This document shows positions 28,909 through 34,378 of a DNA stretch of 64,000 nt, in pieces; position 1 is the stretch's first letter; every line of letters starts with the position of its first letter. Location of the stretch: contig VXNM01000009.1 in assembly GCA_009840545.1 (NCBI GenBank), forward strand, positions 436,559 to 500,558. The letters are read 5' to 3'. The notes under the pieces are model-generated. The model was not told the origin of the DNA and made no database searches. It saw nothing but the letters and a program-made list of their open reading frames with translations. This DNA comes from Gammaproteobacteria bacterium. Its GTDB lineage: Bacteria > Pseudomonadota > Gammaproteobacteria > Pseudomonadales > Azotimanducaceae. Position numbers and translations under genes: made by a program.

Positions 28909-30342
28909 TCACTCAACAACCGAAGGCTTCTTGCTGGTTTCTTTCAATTCCTTGGGTATCAAGATAGTGAAAATCCTAAGGTTGTCTTGATCGATATTGG
29001 AATCAGTCAACCCGGTTCGATACTCTTCAACGATGCTCTGCGCGTCGCCTTTCCTTTCGACTCCCATCAGTGCGCTAACGTAGGTAGCCACAACAAAAGG
29101 ATCATCTTGATCCAATTCGTAGCCTCGTTCCGCATACTCTAAGGCTACCTTGCGGTGAACCGATTCTTCCGATAGAATGATTTTCGATGCTGCTGAGCTG
29201 TAGTGAGTAGCAGTAGTTGCGTCTCCCCACTTCTCGAACCTTCCCTCGTACACCTCAATCAATCCGTCGAAGTCCTTCCTTGCAAGCAGATAGGGAGTTT
29301 CCCATGAGAACCTTAGCTTTTCCGGCAACATACGACTGTTTGGATCACGATTTCGCTCGTAGTCCACAGCTTTGCTTAAAGGATAGGAGTCGAGCGCATC
29401 AATATACTCGGTGAATTTCTCGTCTCCTGCTTGAGCAGTTTTTGCAGCTGAAGTCAACGTAGCTTCCAATATAAGCTGACTCATGGCCGCCTCCGATGAG
29501 ACGGCAAGCACTTCGTCGTAGTTGTCGATCAAAAACTCGACAATCTCCTCCCCTCGAGGATCCCCTGTGCAAAAGTGCATGACTAGCTGAATATCGGTTT
29601 CGTTGATAAGGTCAAGCAATGGTCGGCTTGCAAAGTACTCGCTAGCGATCGTCTTGTACTTCTCTCCCTCCTCGTAGTATGCCCTTACACTGTCGATATC
29701 TTGGTTGTTCAGTTCACGCAAGGAAAGTTCGACGGTTGCGTCCAAGAGGTACTGCCGAATGAACTCCGTCGACCTCTCGCCCGAATCGTATCTCTTCTGC
29801 ATCTCTTCAAACGCCGATTCAGACTCCCCAAGCATTCGACTTACCATGGATATGAACTGATCACTAGGTAAGGCACTCGAAGCGCGATGCAGTTCGTTGC
29901 CGTTGTGATCCAGAATCAAGTACGTCGGATATGCTTCAATGTCGAAACGAGCTTCAAGCTCCGGACCGTCTTGCTCCTCGTTCTCTGCGTCAAGCTTGTA
30001 GTTAACGAATCTGGCATTGAAAAACTCTCCAACTTCCGGCAGGGGAAACACTGTTTCCTGCATCACTACACATGGGCCGCACCAAATTGTGTAGACATCT
30101 ACAAAGACCATCTTCTCCGATTGAGCGGCGAGTACTAGAGCGTCCTCGAAAGAACCGTCAAAGAAGTTTATTCCTTGGCTTGTTGGGGGAGAAGTATTCG
30201 ATTGAGCGGCGACGTGACCCAGTGCTACCGTGTCCTCGTTGGGAGTCGAACATGCGGTTAGTGCTAAAGCGGCGATTGCATACACCAAGATTCCGACCTT
30301 AGCTCGTAGCACCTTCAAGATCCATGTCTCGTTGGTTTGCAT
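28909..30342 (-). CDS. Thioredoxin-fold lipoprotein with C-terminal helical repeats
   Basis: 477-residue predicted lipoprotein. The signal peptide ends in the lipobox LALTAC (Cys31). A thioredoxin domain (about 58-170) has the active site WCGPC (Cys88, Cys91), with cis-Pro region EAYPTYLILDHNG. After this come about 300 residues of mainly helical, TPR-like sequence including ALEYAERGYELDQDDPFVVATYVSALMG. Thioredoxin-like proteins of this kind act on periplasmic or outer-membrane thiols. The ATG at 30342 is favoured; a GTG at 30354 adds four residues. It is last in the minus-strand cluster starting at 34378 and lies 79 bp downstream of the second barrel gene. Confidence 0.82.
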   Translation of the reverse strand: MQTNETWILKVLRAKVGILVYAIAALALTACSTPNEDTVALGHVAAQSNTSPPTSQGINFFDGSFEDALVLAAQSEKMVFVDVYTIWCGPCVVMQETVFPLPEVGEFFNARFVNYKLDAENEEQDGPELEARFDIEAYPTYLILDHNGNELHRASSALPSDQFISMVSRMLGESESAFEEMQKRYDSGERSTEFIRQYLLDATVELSLRELNNQDIDSVRAYYEEGEKYKTIASEYFASRPLLDLINETDIQLVMHFCTGDPRGEEIVEFLIDNYDEVLAVSSEAAMSQLILEATLTSAAKTAQAGDEKFTEYIDALDSYPLSKAVDYERNRDPNSRMLPEKLRFSWETPYLLARKDFDGLIEVYEGRFEKWGDATTATHYSSAASKIILSEESVHRKVALEYAERGYELDQDDPFVVATYVSALMGVERKGDAQSIVEEYRTGLTDSNIDQDNLRIFTILIPKELKETSKKPSVVE

Positions 30343-30421
30343 GGCTGACTTCACTTTGGTCGAGTCCGCTGTTGAATCAGCGTGGCAAAGGTACGCTATT
30401 CAGTGGTCTGGAGCTTCACCG

Positions 30422-31108
30422 TCAAAATCTCCACAGCAGATCCAACTCGAGAGCTCGGTCCAGTCCCTCAAGGGGATCGTAGTATTGAACAAGCGATGCA
30501 ACAACGGCAATCTTGCCGTCCTGAAAATTTATCTTTAATGCGGAAGCCGCAAAAGCCTTCGTTTCATTCATGGATTCAGAGATTTTTTGACTTGGCAGCT
30601 GGATTCCTTCAGATTCAAGCACCCTCGTAGTGGTCGTTGCAGTTCCCTCAGTCTGAATTCTCGCAATGCCTGCTTTCAACTGTACGGAAATTGGATCCCT
30701 TAAAACATATTCGTACACTGGATTGAGTCGGTAAACGGTTGCTTCCAACTCGGTTTCAACGTCCAACGCAAACACACCCTCAAAATCCGGTATTGGGAGA
30801 TCCGTTATAGTCCCGTCTTGTCTTGGGCCCGCAATGTAGGATGCTTCCACTGACCACGTTTCATTAAAAGAGAATCCAACAGTGATCCGGAATCGTGTGT
30901 CTCTGTTAGACACCCGAATGGAATCTGCGGAAATCCCACCTGGCGAGTCTTGGAGAGTCGCCGCAACACTGCTGCTAAACGAGGGCCAGTGGACTAGACC
31001 CCCAGCAACGTAAAAAGGGAAGAGGGCTGCAGCTGAACTGGATACAGCGCAAAAAACGAGCATAGTTCCGATCAATCTGGTCAGAAAATACGTGGTTTTA
31101 CTTTTCAT
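30422..31108 (-). CDS. Outer-membrane beta-barrel protein, paralogue B
   Basis: 228-residue exported protein. The signal peptide has a hydrophobic core about 9-27 and likely cleavage near SSAAA. The mature part shows alternating strands and ends in the aromatic ELDLLWRF, a C-terminal outer-membrane signature. It shares several blocks with the upstream gene: GGLVHWPSFSSS, the strand ETWSVEASYIAG and YRLNPVYEYVL. It resembles small OmpW/OprF-type barrels but belongs to no family I can name. TAGGAG lies about 8 nt before the ATG. Confidence 0.75.
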   Translation of the reverse strand: MKSKTTYFLTRLIGTMLVFCAVSSSAAALFPFYVAGGLVHWPSFSSSVAATLQDSPGGISADSIRVSNRDTRFRITVGFSFNETWSVEASYIAGPRQDGTITDLPIPDFEGVFALDVETELEATVYRLNPVYEYVLRDPISVQLKAGIARIQTEGTATTTTRVLESEGIQLPSQKISESMNETKAFAASALKINFQDGKIAVVASLVQYYDPLEGLDRALELDLLWRF

Positions 31109-31345
31109 TTATGGACTCCTATTGACCCTGTAGGTTAGTTGACTTTGTCGACGCTAAGACGCAGTCTTGAATCCATGAAACTCCTCAGCACACCGTGCCG
31201 ACTCCATATTCCAAGACCGCTCTGATTGTAGTCCAAGCCCGGACATCAATGCTGTCTCTCGCTGAATTACCGAGTTGGGAGAGTCCAAGTCTCACGATGT
31301 TTCACAAGAACCACCAACTCATGCAAGTGATTGATCCCGTGGTGC

Positions 31346-32104
31346 TCAGAATTTCCACTGATAGTCCAATTCCAGTGAATTTGTAACATCGCCCGGTGTG
31401 TCGAAGTAGTTCGAGTACGAAATCGAAATCGCAGATCGCCCACCATTCGGACTCCATTTGAGCCCGGCAGACGCAAAAAGATTTGCGGTGGAATCGGATT
31501 CTGATGAGTTCCATACAGATGGAGGGAAGAGAATATCAATCGGTTGGCTTAATTCATCGTCGAATCTGTACTCCGTTCTGATGGACGTTTTCACGTCGCG
31601 TTCAATGAAAGCAATCCCAGCGGCTCCGAACACAAAAAAGTTTCGTTGGAGGGAAGCCGTATAAACCGGGTTGATTCTCAGAATGGAAGCTTTCAAACTG
31701 TGTGTTACGCTGAGATCGTAATCAATCACGAGATCATCATCAAAAACGTCTCCAACCACTTCAGAAATAATTGGGTAGAAGCCATCAAACAAGCTTGGAA
31801 TGTGGGTCTCATGATTCATGCCGACAATTGCGACTGCTTCAATGGACCATGAGTTGTTAAGGGAGTAGCCCGCGCCAATCTTGAAGCTGGTCTGAGAGCT
31901 CGACTCTGAGAAAGTAGTGCGCGTATACGGAGCGATTGTCGGGAATGCAAAAGAGAATCGAGGATTGGAAGAACCAAATTCCGGCCAATGAACGACTCCT
32001 CCCGTTAGGTAAACGTCTTCCAAGTCAACAGCCTGAACTGAAGTTCCAAACAGGCAGAACAATCCAGCCACTAATGCCATTGAAGAAGCAAGTCTCCTAA
32101 TCAT
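31346..32104 (-). CDS. Outer-membrane beta-barrel protein, paralogue A
   Basis: 252-residue exported protein. ATG at 32104 is chosen because GGAGG lies about 9 nt upstream and a signal peptide starts there (MIRRLASSMALVAGLFCLF, cleavage near VQA). The open frame extends 31 codons further upstream without features. The blocks GGVVHWPEFGSS, NSWSIEAVAIVG and LRINPVYTASL are shared with paralogue B, and the end ELDYQWKF again has the terminal Phe. The genes are separated by 237 bp, so each may have its own promoter. Likely product of tandem duplication. Confidence 0.75.
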   Translation of the reverse strand: MIRRLASSMALVAGLFCLFGTSVQAVDLEDVYLTGGVVHWPEFGSSNPRFSFAFPTIAPYTRTTFSESSSQTSFKIGAGYSLNNSWSIEAVAIVGMNHETHIPSLFDGFYPIISEVVGDVFDDDLVIDYDLSVTHSLKASILRINPVYTASLQRNFFVFGAAGIAFIERDVKTSIRTEYRFDDELSQPIDILFPPSVWNSSESDSTANLFASAGLKWSPNGGRSAISISYSNYFDTPGDVTNSLELDYQWKF

Positions 32105-32409
32105 TTGACGAATCCTCCGGTTGGGATTGGTTGATCTCGCATGGCGAATGAAGTGCGTACTATTCTTGGATACTAGAAAGGGAATGTAAGTTCCCAATAC
32201 CGCCGGCTAACGTTCCGTACGTTAGTTGGTTGGAACGAGACAATTTGCCACGAGACTTAACAATGTCGCTCCGTGGATCAGCGACTCTAAAGGATATGCG
32301 AATGTTCGTTCTGACGTAAACGGAGTTTCTCGGAAGACCACGTTAAGTAACGAAGAATGGCACTTCCATATCCGGAAGATATCCCGTCGGAATTGCAGAT
32401 GCGGAATCA

Positions 32410-32442
32410 TAGATCGCGGCACTGTTTTAGTGCCGCGATCTA
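32410..32442 (-). terminator. Perfect 14-bp hairpin between TlpA-like lipoprotein gene and barrel gene
   Basis: Arms TAGATCGCGGCACT (32410-32423) and AGTGCCGCGATCTA (32429-32442) are perfectly complementary, with a 5-nt loop. It is 26 bp past the stop of the TlpA-like gene. The stem is very stable. No U-tract follows on either strand, so it may be a transcript-stabilising or processing structure, or a protein-binding palindrome, rather than an intrinsic terminator. Confidence 0.5.
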
Positions 32443-32467
32443 GAGTAGACAAGCAATCTACTAAATG

Positions 32468-34378
32468 CTACACCTCGTCGATTTCCGTCTCGGAGTCATC
32501 AGGAGATTCTGCTTCCTCTTCCTCAACCTCCTCCTGTAGCTCGGGCTTGTCGCCATGTTGTGCAACAAGTAGCTCTTGTAGCTTTTCTCCCTGCATGTCC
32601 TTGTCAACAATGCAACCCTTACTGTCAATCAAATAGCCTTTTGGAATCCACCCGACACCGTAGGCGACAGGTGTCGTTCCTTGGAATTCTTTGCCGTCTA
32701 CTTCACCGAGATCGATCCAGGGCAGTTCAAGGCTTAAGGATTTCTGTTCCCACTCTTCGAAAGTCTCATCAATAGATATTGAGATGATTTCAAACCCGTC
32801 GTCGTTAAACGCCGCGTGGAGCTTTTTCAGTTTTGGAAAGCTTGCAATGCACGGTCCGCACCAAGATGCCCAAAAATCAACCAAGACGTGATCATTTTTC
32901 GAAATGGTCTCGTACAAGGAAACCTCGGCGCCGTCCAACGAAGCAAGCGTGAATTCAGGAGCCACTTGGCCTGGTACAAGGCCCTTGTCATTGGTTTCAG
33001 CTTCCATCCTCGCAAAGATCGTATCTCGCTGTGGTACTACTCGTTGCTCTATGAGTTCGGAGTCGAGTGATGAAGTGGCCAACTTGTCCAATGCTGCCAA
33101 TTGGTCTTCATTGGACGTAAAGGCACGCATTTCTACAGCTAAGAGCGCGGCTATAGGATTATCGAGATCCCCGGCAATTCGTTGCAAGGCCGCAGTGCGA
33201 TAGTCCGTTAATTCGACCTGAAGTTTCACATGCTCTGGTGCATCTTCGTTAGCAGCCTGCGCGTAGCTCCAGAGGTCTAACGGCTCAAAGTCGCTTGTGT
33301 CAATGTGCTCACAACCCTCAGCTGCCGGAGCTAAGTCTGTACTCGCGACCTTCGGTTCTTCGGCTTCTTCTATTGCAACTGCTTCAGACTCTGTTGAGTC
33401 CTCTGAACCTTCCATTGCAGTCGCATCACCTTCGGCTGTAGAAGCATCCTCTTCCTGCGCTGCTGCGGCCTCAGCCCGTCGTGCTTCCATCTCTTGTTGG
33501 AAGGCGTCGAATGCCTCTTCGTATGCGCTAACCTTCGCAAGATATTCCTCGTCCATTGCCCAACTATTGACCACTGCATAGTGTTGAGAGCCCTTGGGTG
33601 CCGTTGCGACCAGAGTCGATCCGTCCATAGAGACACCCACCTCTACACCAGCCTCAGCGATCACTTGAACGTTCTTGTAGAGCGCACTTCCTGCTTGAAC
33701 ATATGCGGTGACAACCATTGGATCACTGGCAGTACCTTCAAACACGAACTTCCCATCGATTGGATTTACTGGCCCTAAAGTGAAATTCGTGGTTGTCTGC
33801 TTCTCGTCGTTCCACTTGCTTCCGTAGATTTGCACCTCTGCGAAGGCTAGGTCTTCTTCAAGGTCACTCAAATCACCGGAAATCACGTACTTGTCCTCCG
33901 TTTCCTCGTGGATTCGATACTCTCCCACTAACATGAGCTGATCATAACTAGCTGGAGTCACTTGATCGATGAGTTTGAATGCTAATCCCTGATCCGGGGC
34001 AATAATGGCATTCAACTTCATAGGTTCGTCGGATCCAACATCGATGGAGATGCTGACTTCGGTTGGAGCGGCAATCTTTCCTTCGAGTTCAATTGTTCCG
34101 TCTTCGAACGATCCGGACGCCAGAACCTCGTCCGACGCTTCACCATCATCGTTTGTCACTTCGCGGACGACCGAGACTGTTACAGCAGATATGTCGATTG
34201 GCGGTTCTACTTCAATCCTTCCGGAATCGATCATTTCTTGTATATATGACGGCACTTCTTCCAGTTCAGCAACGATGAATTCGCCCGACACTGTGTACGG
34301 ACGCTGAGGATTTCCACTACATGCAGCAATAAACACTGCCAAAGCGAGTAATCCCGTAATTGCAAGTTGGTTCTTCAT
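32468..34378 (-). CDS. TlpA-like thioredoxin lipoprotein with large N-terminal domain
   Basis: 636-residue predicted lipoprotein: signal peptide with lipobox VFIAAC (Cys20). A beta-rich N-terminal half follows whose layout (repeated GSFEDGTIELEGK-like strands, DGKFVFEG) recalls the DUF4369 domain of Bacteroidetes TlpA proteins. Next comes a low-complexity Ala/Glu/Ser linker (about 310-355), a helical section, and the C-terminal TlpA/AhpC domain with VDFWASWCGPC and EIISISIDETFEEW. It finishes in a very acidic tail of about 25 residues. The ATG at 34378 has AGGAGAAG upstream. It opens the cluster containing the two barrels and the second thioredoxin lipoprotein. Confidence 0.82.
   Translation of the reverse strand: MKNQLAITGLLALAVFIAACSGNPQRPYTVSGEFIVAELEEVPSYIQEMIDSGRIEVEPPIDISAVTVSVVREVTNDDGEASDEVLASGSFEDGTIELEGKIAAPTEVSISIDVGSDEPMKLNAIIAPDQGLAFKLIDQVTPASYDQLMLVGEYRIHEETEDKYVISGDLSDLEEDLAFAEVQIYGSKWNDEKQTTTNFTLGPVNPIDGKFVFEGTASDPMVVTAYVQAGSALYKNVQVIAEAGVEVGVSMDGSTLVATAPKGSQHYAVVNSWAMDEEYLAKVSAYEEAFDAFQQEMEARRAEAAAAQEEDASTAEGDATAMEGSEDSTESEAVAIEEAEEPKVASTDLAPAAEGCEHIDTSDFEPLDLWSYAQAANEDAPEHVKLQVELTDYRTAALQRIAGDLDNPIAALLAVEMRAFTSNEDQLAALDKLATSSLDSELIEQRVVPQRDTIFARMEAETNDKGLVPGQVAPEFTLASLDGAEVSLYETISKNDHVLVDFWASWCGPCIASFPKLKKLHAAFNDDGFEIISISIDETFEEWEQKSLSLELPWIDLGEVDGKEFQGTTPVAYGVGWIPKGYLIDSKGCIVDKDMQGEKLQELLVAQHGDKPELQEEVEEEEAESPDDSETEIDEV

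Follow-up and report, generated by a model that had tools for sequence, protein, structure and literature searches.

Since two small barrel genes lie between two genes for thioredoxin-fold lipoproteins, the locus at positions 28909-34378 of the window (the whole stretch of DNA analysed, 64,000 nucleotides) raises the question whether its four genes constitute one redox system. This had been suggested in an earlier note, in which the lipoproteins were thought to service the barrels or another partner. From our point of view the probable answer is that they do not, and that the two outer genes encode an envelope thiol-reductase-like pair, made up of a TlpA-type and a thioredoxin (Trx) protein from an expanded family, with the barrels as a separate matter. 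The four genes reported in that note are indeed all present on the minus strand and in the order given there, with the gene of the TlpA-type lipoprotein followed by barrel B, barrel A and the gene of a Trx/helical-repeat (Trx/TPR) lipoprotein. Homologues of all four exist in other genomes, so that none of them represents a chance ORF. Their likely starts, chosen by signal peptides, are internal ATG codons at 34378, 32104, 31108 and 30342. The features of the locus are:

32468..34378, minus strand: TlpA-type lipoprotein, 636 aa (PF00578 54.2 bits, PF08534 49.4 bits, PF14289 27.7 bits)
33311..33313, minus strand: TlpA-type protein, C356, predicted to form a second disulfide with C589 (from their co-occurrence)
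32849..32860, minus strand: active site C507-G-P-C510 (WASWCGPC) of the TlpA-type protein, its two Cys conserved in 71 of the 72 rows of the alignment (the query row included)
32612..32614, minus strand: TlpA-type protein, C589, the partner of C356 in the predicted second disulfide (from their co-occurrence)
32410..32442, minus strand: perfect 14-bp inverted repeat with a 5-nt loop, just 3' of the TlpA stop codon
31346..32104, minus strand: barrel B, about 252 aa, signal peptide, C-terminal WKF, mature part without Cys (PF13505 23.2 bits, E 9e-5)
30422..31108, minus strand: barrel A, 228 aa, signal peptide, C-terminal WRF, mature part without Cys (PF13505 30.5 bits)
28909..30342, minus strand: thioredoxin and helical-repeat lipoprotein, 477 aa, lipobox LTA/C (PF13899 40.4 bits against a cut-off of 27; also PF13098 and PF00085)
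30070..30081, minus strand: active site CGPC (YTIWCGPC) of the Trx/helical-repeat protein, kept in the orthologue of genome G003

Judged by their sequences, A and B are small outer-membrane barrels, which share 28.5% identity, both end in Phe as described before, and weakly match the OMP_b-brl and AcfA families. For OMP_b-brl (PF13505, cut-off 28.7 bits) barrel A scores above and barrel B below the threshold, whereas both stay far under the cut-off of 100 bits of the AcfA profile NF033908 (37 bits for A, 20.8 bits for B) and are thus not assigned to that family. They rather represent a divergent family whose members stand two or three together in this genus. OmpW was not found among the Pfam matches of the barrels at E values up to 0.1, and a PDB profile search with 24 barrels yielded nothing better than E 0.05. 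In Vibrio parahaemolyticus, loss of AcfA raises envelope stress responses (PMC11767970). The sole cysteine of each barrel falls within its signal peptide, so that the mature proteins offer no thiol on which a thioredoxin could act. Across 34 members of the barrel family the mature part mostly contains either no cysteine or one isolated cysteine; the exceptions include L112:7555-8367 (Cys 199 and 200) and the over-long ORF L095:9607-10557.

The comparison with related genomes separates the barrels from their neighbours in the window. In the sister genome G003 (JAPOXO010000062.1, loci L093/L098), synteny with the window extends on both sides of the locus (genes c23-c28 and c29-c33), and at the syntenic site the Trx/TPR and TlpA genes adjoin at a distance of 174 bp with only a hairpin between them, the barrels being absent. 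The barrel pair of this genome is instead found on contig C50, on the opposite strand and within a housekeeping block, between dapF and DUF484-xerC. In a third species (G014), orthologues of B and A stand as a pair in conserved order on contig C6 (B, 57.5% identity, L094:8893-9648; A, 48%, L094:9801-10580), and no TlpA-type or Trx/TPR gene occurs in the 19 kb around them (nor any gene of the thioredoxin type within about 8 kb), while the TlpA orthologue of the same genome stands alone on contig C28 (L097) in a different neighbourhood. In six further genomes (G002, G005, G007, G008, G011 and G013), barrel groups lie beside ICE conjugation genes (RAQPRD, TIGR03744-03752) and, where flanking sequence was covered, mostly also beside a gene for alpha-2-macroglobulin. 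The gene-neighbourhood search that the earlier note had proposed hence finds homologous barrels scattered in relatives without thioredoxins, an outcome which the note itself had named as speaking against its proposal.

The same picture emerges from gene distances, which for the barrels were read by hand from profile-search matches. Of the 22 barrel clusters outside the window, 2 have a Redoxin gene at a distance of up to 5 kb, against 2.6 expected (3 of 23 if a weaker barrel in G007:C1 is counted). For the Trx/TPR loci, here with that of the window included, the number is 12 of 32, where 3.8 would be expected (binomial p about 2e-4); it becomes 10 of 30 (p about 0.002) once the locus of the window and its orthologue in G003 are left out. 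Since the calculation assumes evenly spread genes and Redoxin genes are clustered, both p-values are too small.

It is, however, still necessary to weigh the reading of the locus as one four-gene system, in which the thioredoxin lipoproteins set the thiol state of the barrels or of a partner borne by them. This would agree with the genes adjoining on one strand in this genome and with the gap of only about 80 bp between barrel A and the Trx/TPR gene, which could share one transcript here. Yet the cysteine-free mature barrels, their absence from the syntenic sister locus, their occurrence elsewhere without thioredoxins and their chance-level proximity to Redoxin genes all argue against it. In addition, the inverted repeat behind the TlpA gene likely forms a hairpin that ends the TlpA transcript, and a perfect 18-bp hairpin occupies the equivalent position in G003 (L098:9606-9648); with a hairpin of its own after the TlpA stop codon, a single four-gene operon is unlikely. 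We therefore regard a system of this kind as very improbable. What stands of the proposed redox system is that its outer genes encode envelope thiol-disulfide proteins and that TlpA-type and Trx/TPR genes recur as neighbours; what falls is the inclusion of the barrels. The TlpA-type and Trx/helical-repeat genes are an old neighbour pair, between which the barrels, a separate AcfA-like pair, most likely lie by chance of position.

The TlpA-type protein consists of a signal peptide with the lipobox FIAA/C (C20), a DUF4369 region, a helical linker and a C-terminal thioredoxin domain of the ResA/TlpA kind. It passes the thresholds of PF00578 (54.2 bits, cut-off 26) and of DUF4369 (PF14289; 27.7 bits, cut-off 25, over profile positions 23-80 only) and remains below that of the ResA-like profile NF002854 (63 bits, cut-off 170). 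Orthologues with 66-67% identity are present in G003 and G014. In its architecture it resembles the DUF4369-containing TlpA/ResA oxidoreductases typical of Bacteroidota, which likewise combine DUF4369 with a C-terminal TlpA domain bearing WCGPC and are exported and often lipidated; unlike them, it belongs to a gammaproteobacterial genus, occurs in tens of copies and has a coupled second cysteine pair. The thioredoxin domain of its 477-aa neighbour, for which an orthologue with 66% identity exists in G003, aligns with PDB 2kuc over 114 residues (59-172, E 8e-20); 2kuc, however, lacks the helical-repeat half of about 300 residues that, together with a lipobox, is found here. Structure models of this protein and of barrel A built from two-row alignments were too poor (pLDDT 39 and 31, respectively) and were set aside.

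The thioredoxin half of the locus belongs to a kind of protein that is known as such but notably expanded here, the finding of the four genes side by side being ordinary. Counted with PF08534 at E 1e-6, which includes ordinary peroxiredoxins and short TlpA proteins, Redoxin domains number 22-47 in 10 of the 18 genomes of the genus, 7-11 in the other eight and 5-18 in 40 further genomes of the family and order (the other genomes counted have a median of 9, calculated from hand-copied counts, and a maximum of 18). Among the relatives searched, DUF4369 is confined to this genus and G023, and among 14 control genomes to Bacteroides. No description of a TlpA expansion in sponge symbionts was found in the open-licence literature.

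Each of the ten expanded genomes encodes exactly one DsbD (PF02683), and in 14 genomes of the genus a TlpA/DUF4369 gene is located about 0.5-2.4 kb from the DsbD domain. The TlpA paralogue of the window lies away from this DsbD-adjacent locus. In the genome of the window (G000, L117) DsbD and the adjoining TlpA gene are convergent and 189 bp apart, so that the link is one of position and not of a shared transcript. DsbD is a reductive electron donor. Because of the conserved position and this known biochemistry, DsbD is likely the electron source of the TlpA/DUF4369 family, and would presumably serve the paralogue of the window as well. Electrons would accordingly pass from cytoplasmic thioredoxin to the single DsbD and from there to one or more proteins of the TlpA/DUF4369 type, which could in turn act on exported proteins by reducing their disulfides or sulfenic acids; lipid-anchored members, with Ser at position +2, would do so at the outer membrane.

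Two other roles can be imagined for the TlpA-type proteins. They might be oxidases, isomerases or cytochrome c maturation factors of the CcmG/DsbE type, as the thioredoxin fold with its CXXC motif and a weak match to the DsbE profile TIGR00385 (45.4 bits) would allow. This score is far below the DsbE cut-off of 123, which gives no CcmG/DsbE membership, the DUF4369 architecture does not fit, the family is tied to a reductive donor in DsbD and the maturation of cytochromes does not need tens of copies; we thus hold such a role to be unlikely. Alternatively, they could form a relay of the Etrx type with an exported methionine sulfoxide reductase as its recipient, as in the CcdA-Etrx-MsrAB2 system of pneumococcus. 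Among PDB sequences, the TlpA domain matches best with 2yp6 and 4hqz, thioredoxin lipoproteins of the pneumococcal surface (PMC3914529), and with Etrx1/Etrx2 the proteins share a lipid-anchored thioredoxin fold and a membrane donor of the DsbD/CcdA kind. They differ by the additional DUF4369 and linker regions and by their many paralogues, and a search that covered MsrB found one MsrB per genome in 14 genomes and none within the TlpA loci listed, the MsrB of G000 having an N-terminus without an evident signal peptide. A relay of this type consequently appears quite unlikely, and a more general reduction of envelope thiols by the TlpA-type proteins is the reading we prefer.

As to where these reductases would act, the lipoboxes reported for both thioredoxin-fold proteins are confirmed in the window (FIAAC and LTAC), and in both the cysteine is followed by Ser at +2. 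According to the Lol rule, Ser at this position of a lipoprotein points to the outer membrane, where the lipid-anchored members would therefore be expected to sit. The G003 orthologues of both proteins (66% identity), however, have a signal peptide and lack the lipobox, so that lipidation, and with it anchoring in the outer membrane, is not conserved. A strict lipobox test, which also overlooks some plausible lipoboxes, was passed by 24 of 71 relatives; together with the G003 orthologues, this indicates that the family comprises lipidated members as well as soluble exported ones.

A concrete structural prediction comes from the second pair of cysteines in the family. Across 71 relatives (proteins of at least 500 aa, including the window's own ORF, taken from loci picked around TlpA matches), C356 and C589 are both present in 54 and both absent in 17, and a single one never occurs; the 17 relatives without the pair have an alignment gap at C356. 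On a tree obtained with the quick version of the tree search, the state of the pair changed jointly five times, at least three of these changes being forced by well-supported branches. As the two cysteines are kept or lost as a unit, we predict that they form a second disulfide, which would connect the linker to the thioredoxin domain. An alternative explanation for the coupling would be a common functional role without a bond.

The MAG records COS2_bin_1 and COS3_bin_7 belong to the two close relatives and SB0661_bin_12 to one further away, and a study of sponge MAGs sampled Coscinoderma and Ircinia (PMC8163846). From the record names and this literature, the genus is probably sponge-associated, at least in part. 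One could speculate, although we regard this as a tentative idea, that in one branch of the genus tens of diverged TlpA-type proteins, fed by DsbD, make up a reductive network of the envelope, that in most of them a coupled second disulfide may work as a switch for regulation or relay, and that the network perhaps guards exported proteins against host oxidants. With the false four-gene system removed, the real feature is that envelope thioredoxin-like proteins have multiplied in this lineage around one DsbD. Should they be reductases that differ in their substrates, they would form a natural series in which to study the way such enzymes acquire specificity, as well as a testable redox trait of animal-associated bacteria, and the coupled cysteine pair provides a concrete structural prediction.

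Some further observations were made around these loci. In L117 (G000:C12:692000-711900), DsbD, two long TlpA paralogues and a DUF4369/TlpA gene lie within 16 kb together with two large TonB-receptor-like genes (c38, assigned by eye from the start of the sequence). The ICE-type conjugation block (RAQPRD, TIGR03744, 03745, 03746, 03749, 03750 and 03752) is conserved across several species (L103-L108, L119) and adjoins a TlpA paralogue in G000:C3 and barrel groups elsewhere. A family of proteins of about 500-640 aa with an N-terminal hydrophobic segment and a helical remainder (c2) is found in 10 of 29 thioredoxin-type regions (L099, L101, L114, L116, L118, L121-L125) and in none of 11 barrel-only regions; it was considered as a thiol partner of the thioredoxins and dropped, as Pfam gave no match and PDB no useful one, and its members mostly contain 0-2 cysteines. 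Another family (c21), a coiled-coil-rich exported protein with C-terminal EF hands, adjoins TlpA or Trx/TPR genes (L101, L124, L125, L128). Lastly, Redoxin genes with an in-frame TGA occur at G000:C8:126015-126458 (L141) and in L143 and L144, with the motifs TSNWUGYC, TTNWUPYC and TSNWUPYC, and no tRNA gene was seen near them in the stretches examined. They probably encode selenocysteine proteins, and single-TGA Redoxin matches are present in all ten expanded genomes, with the TGA at a conserved place and often with two genes in tandem.
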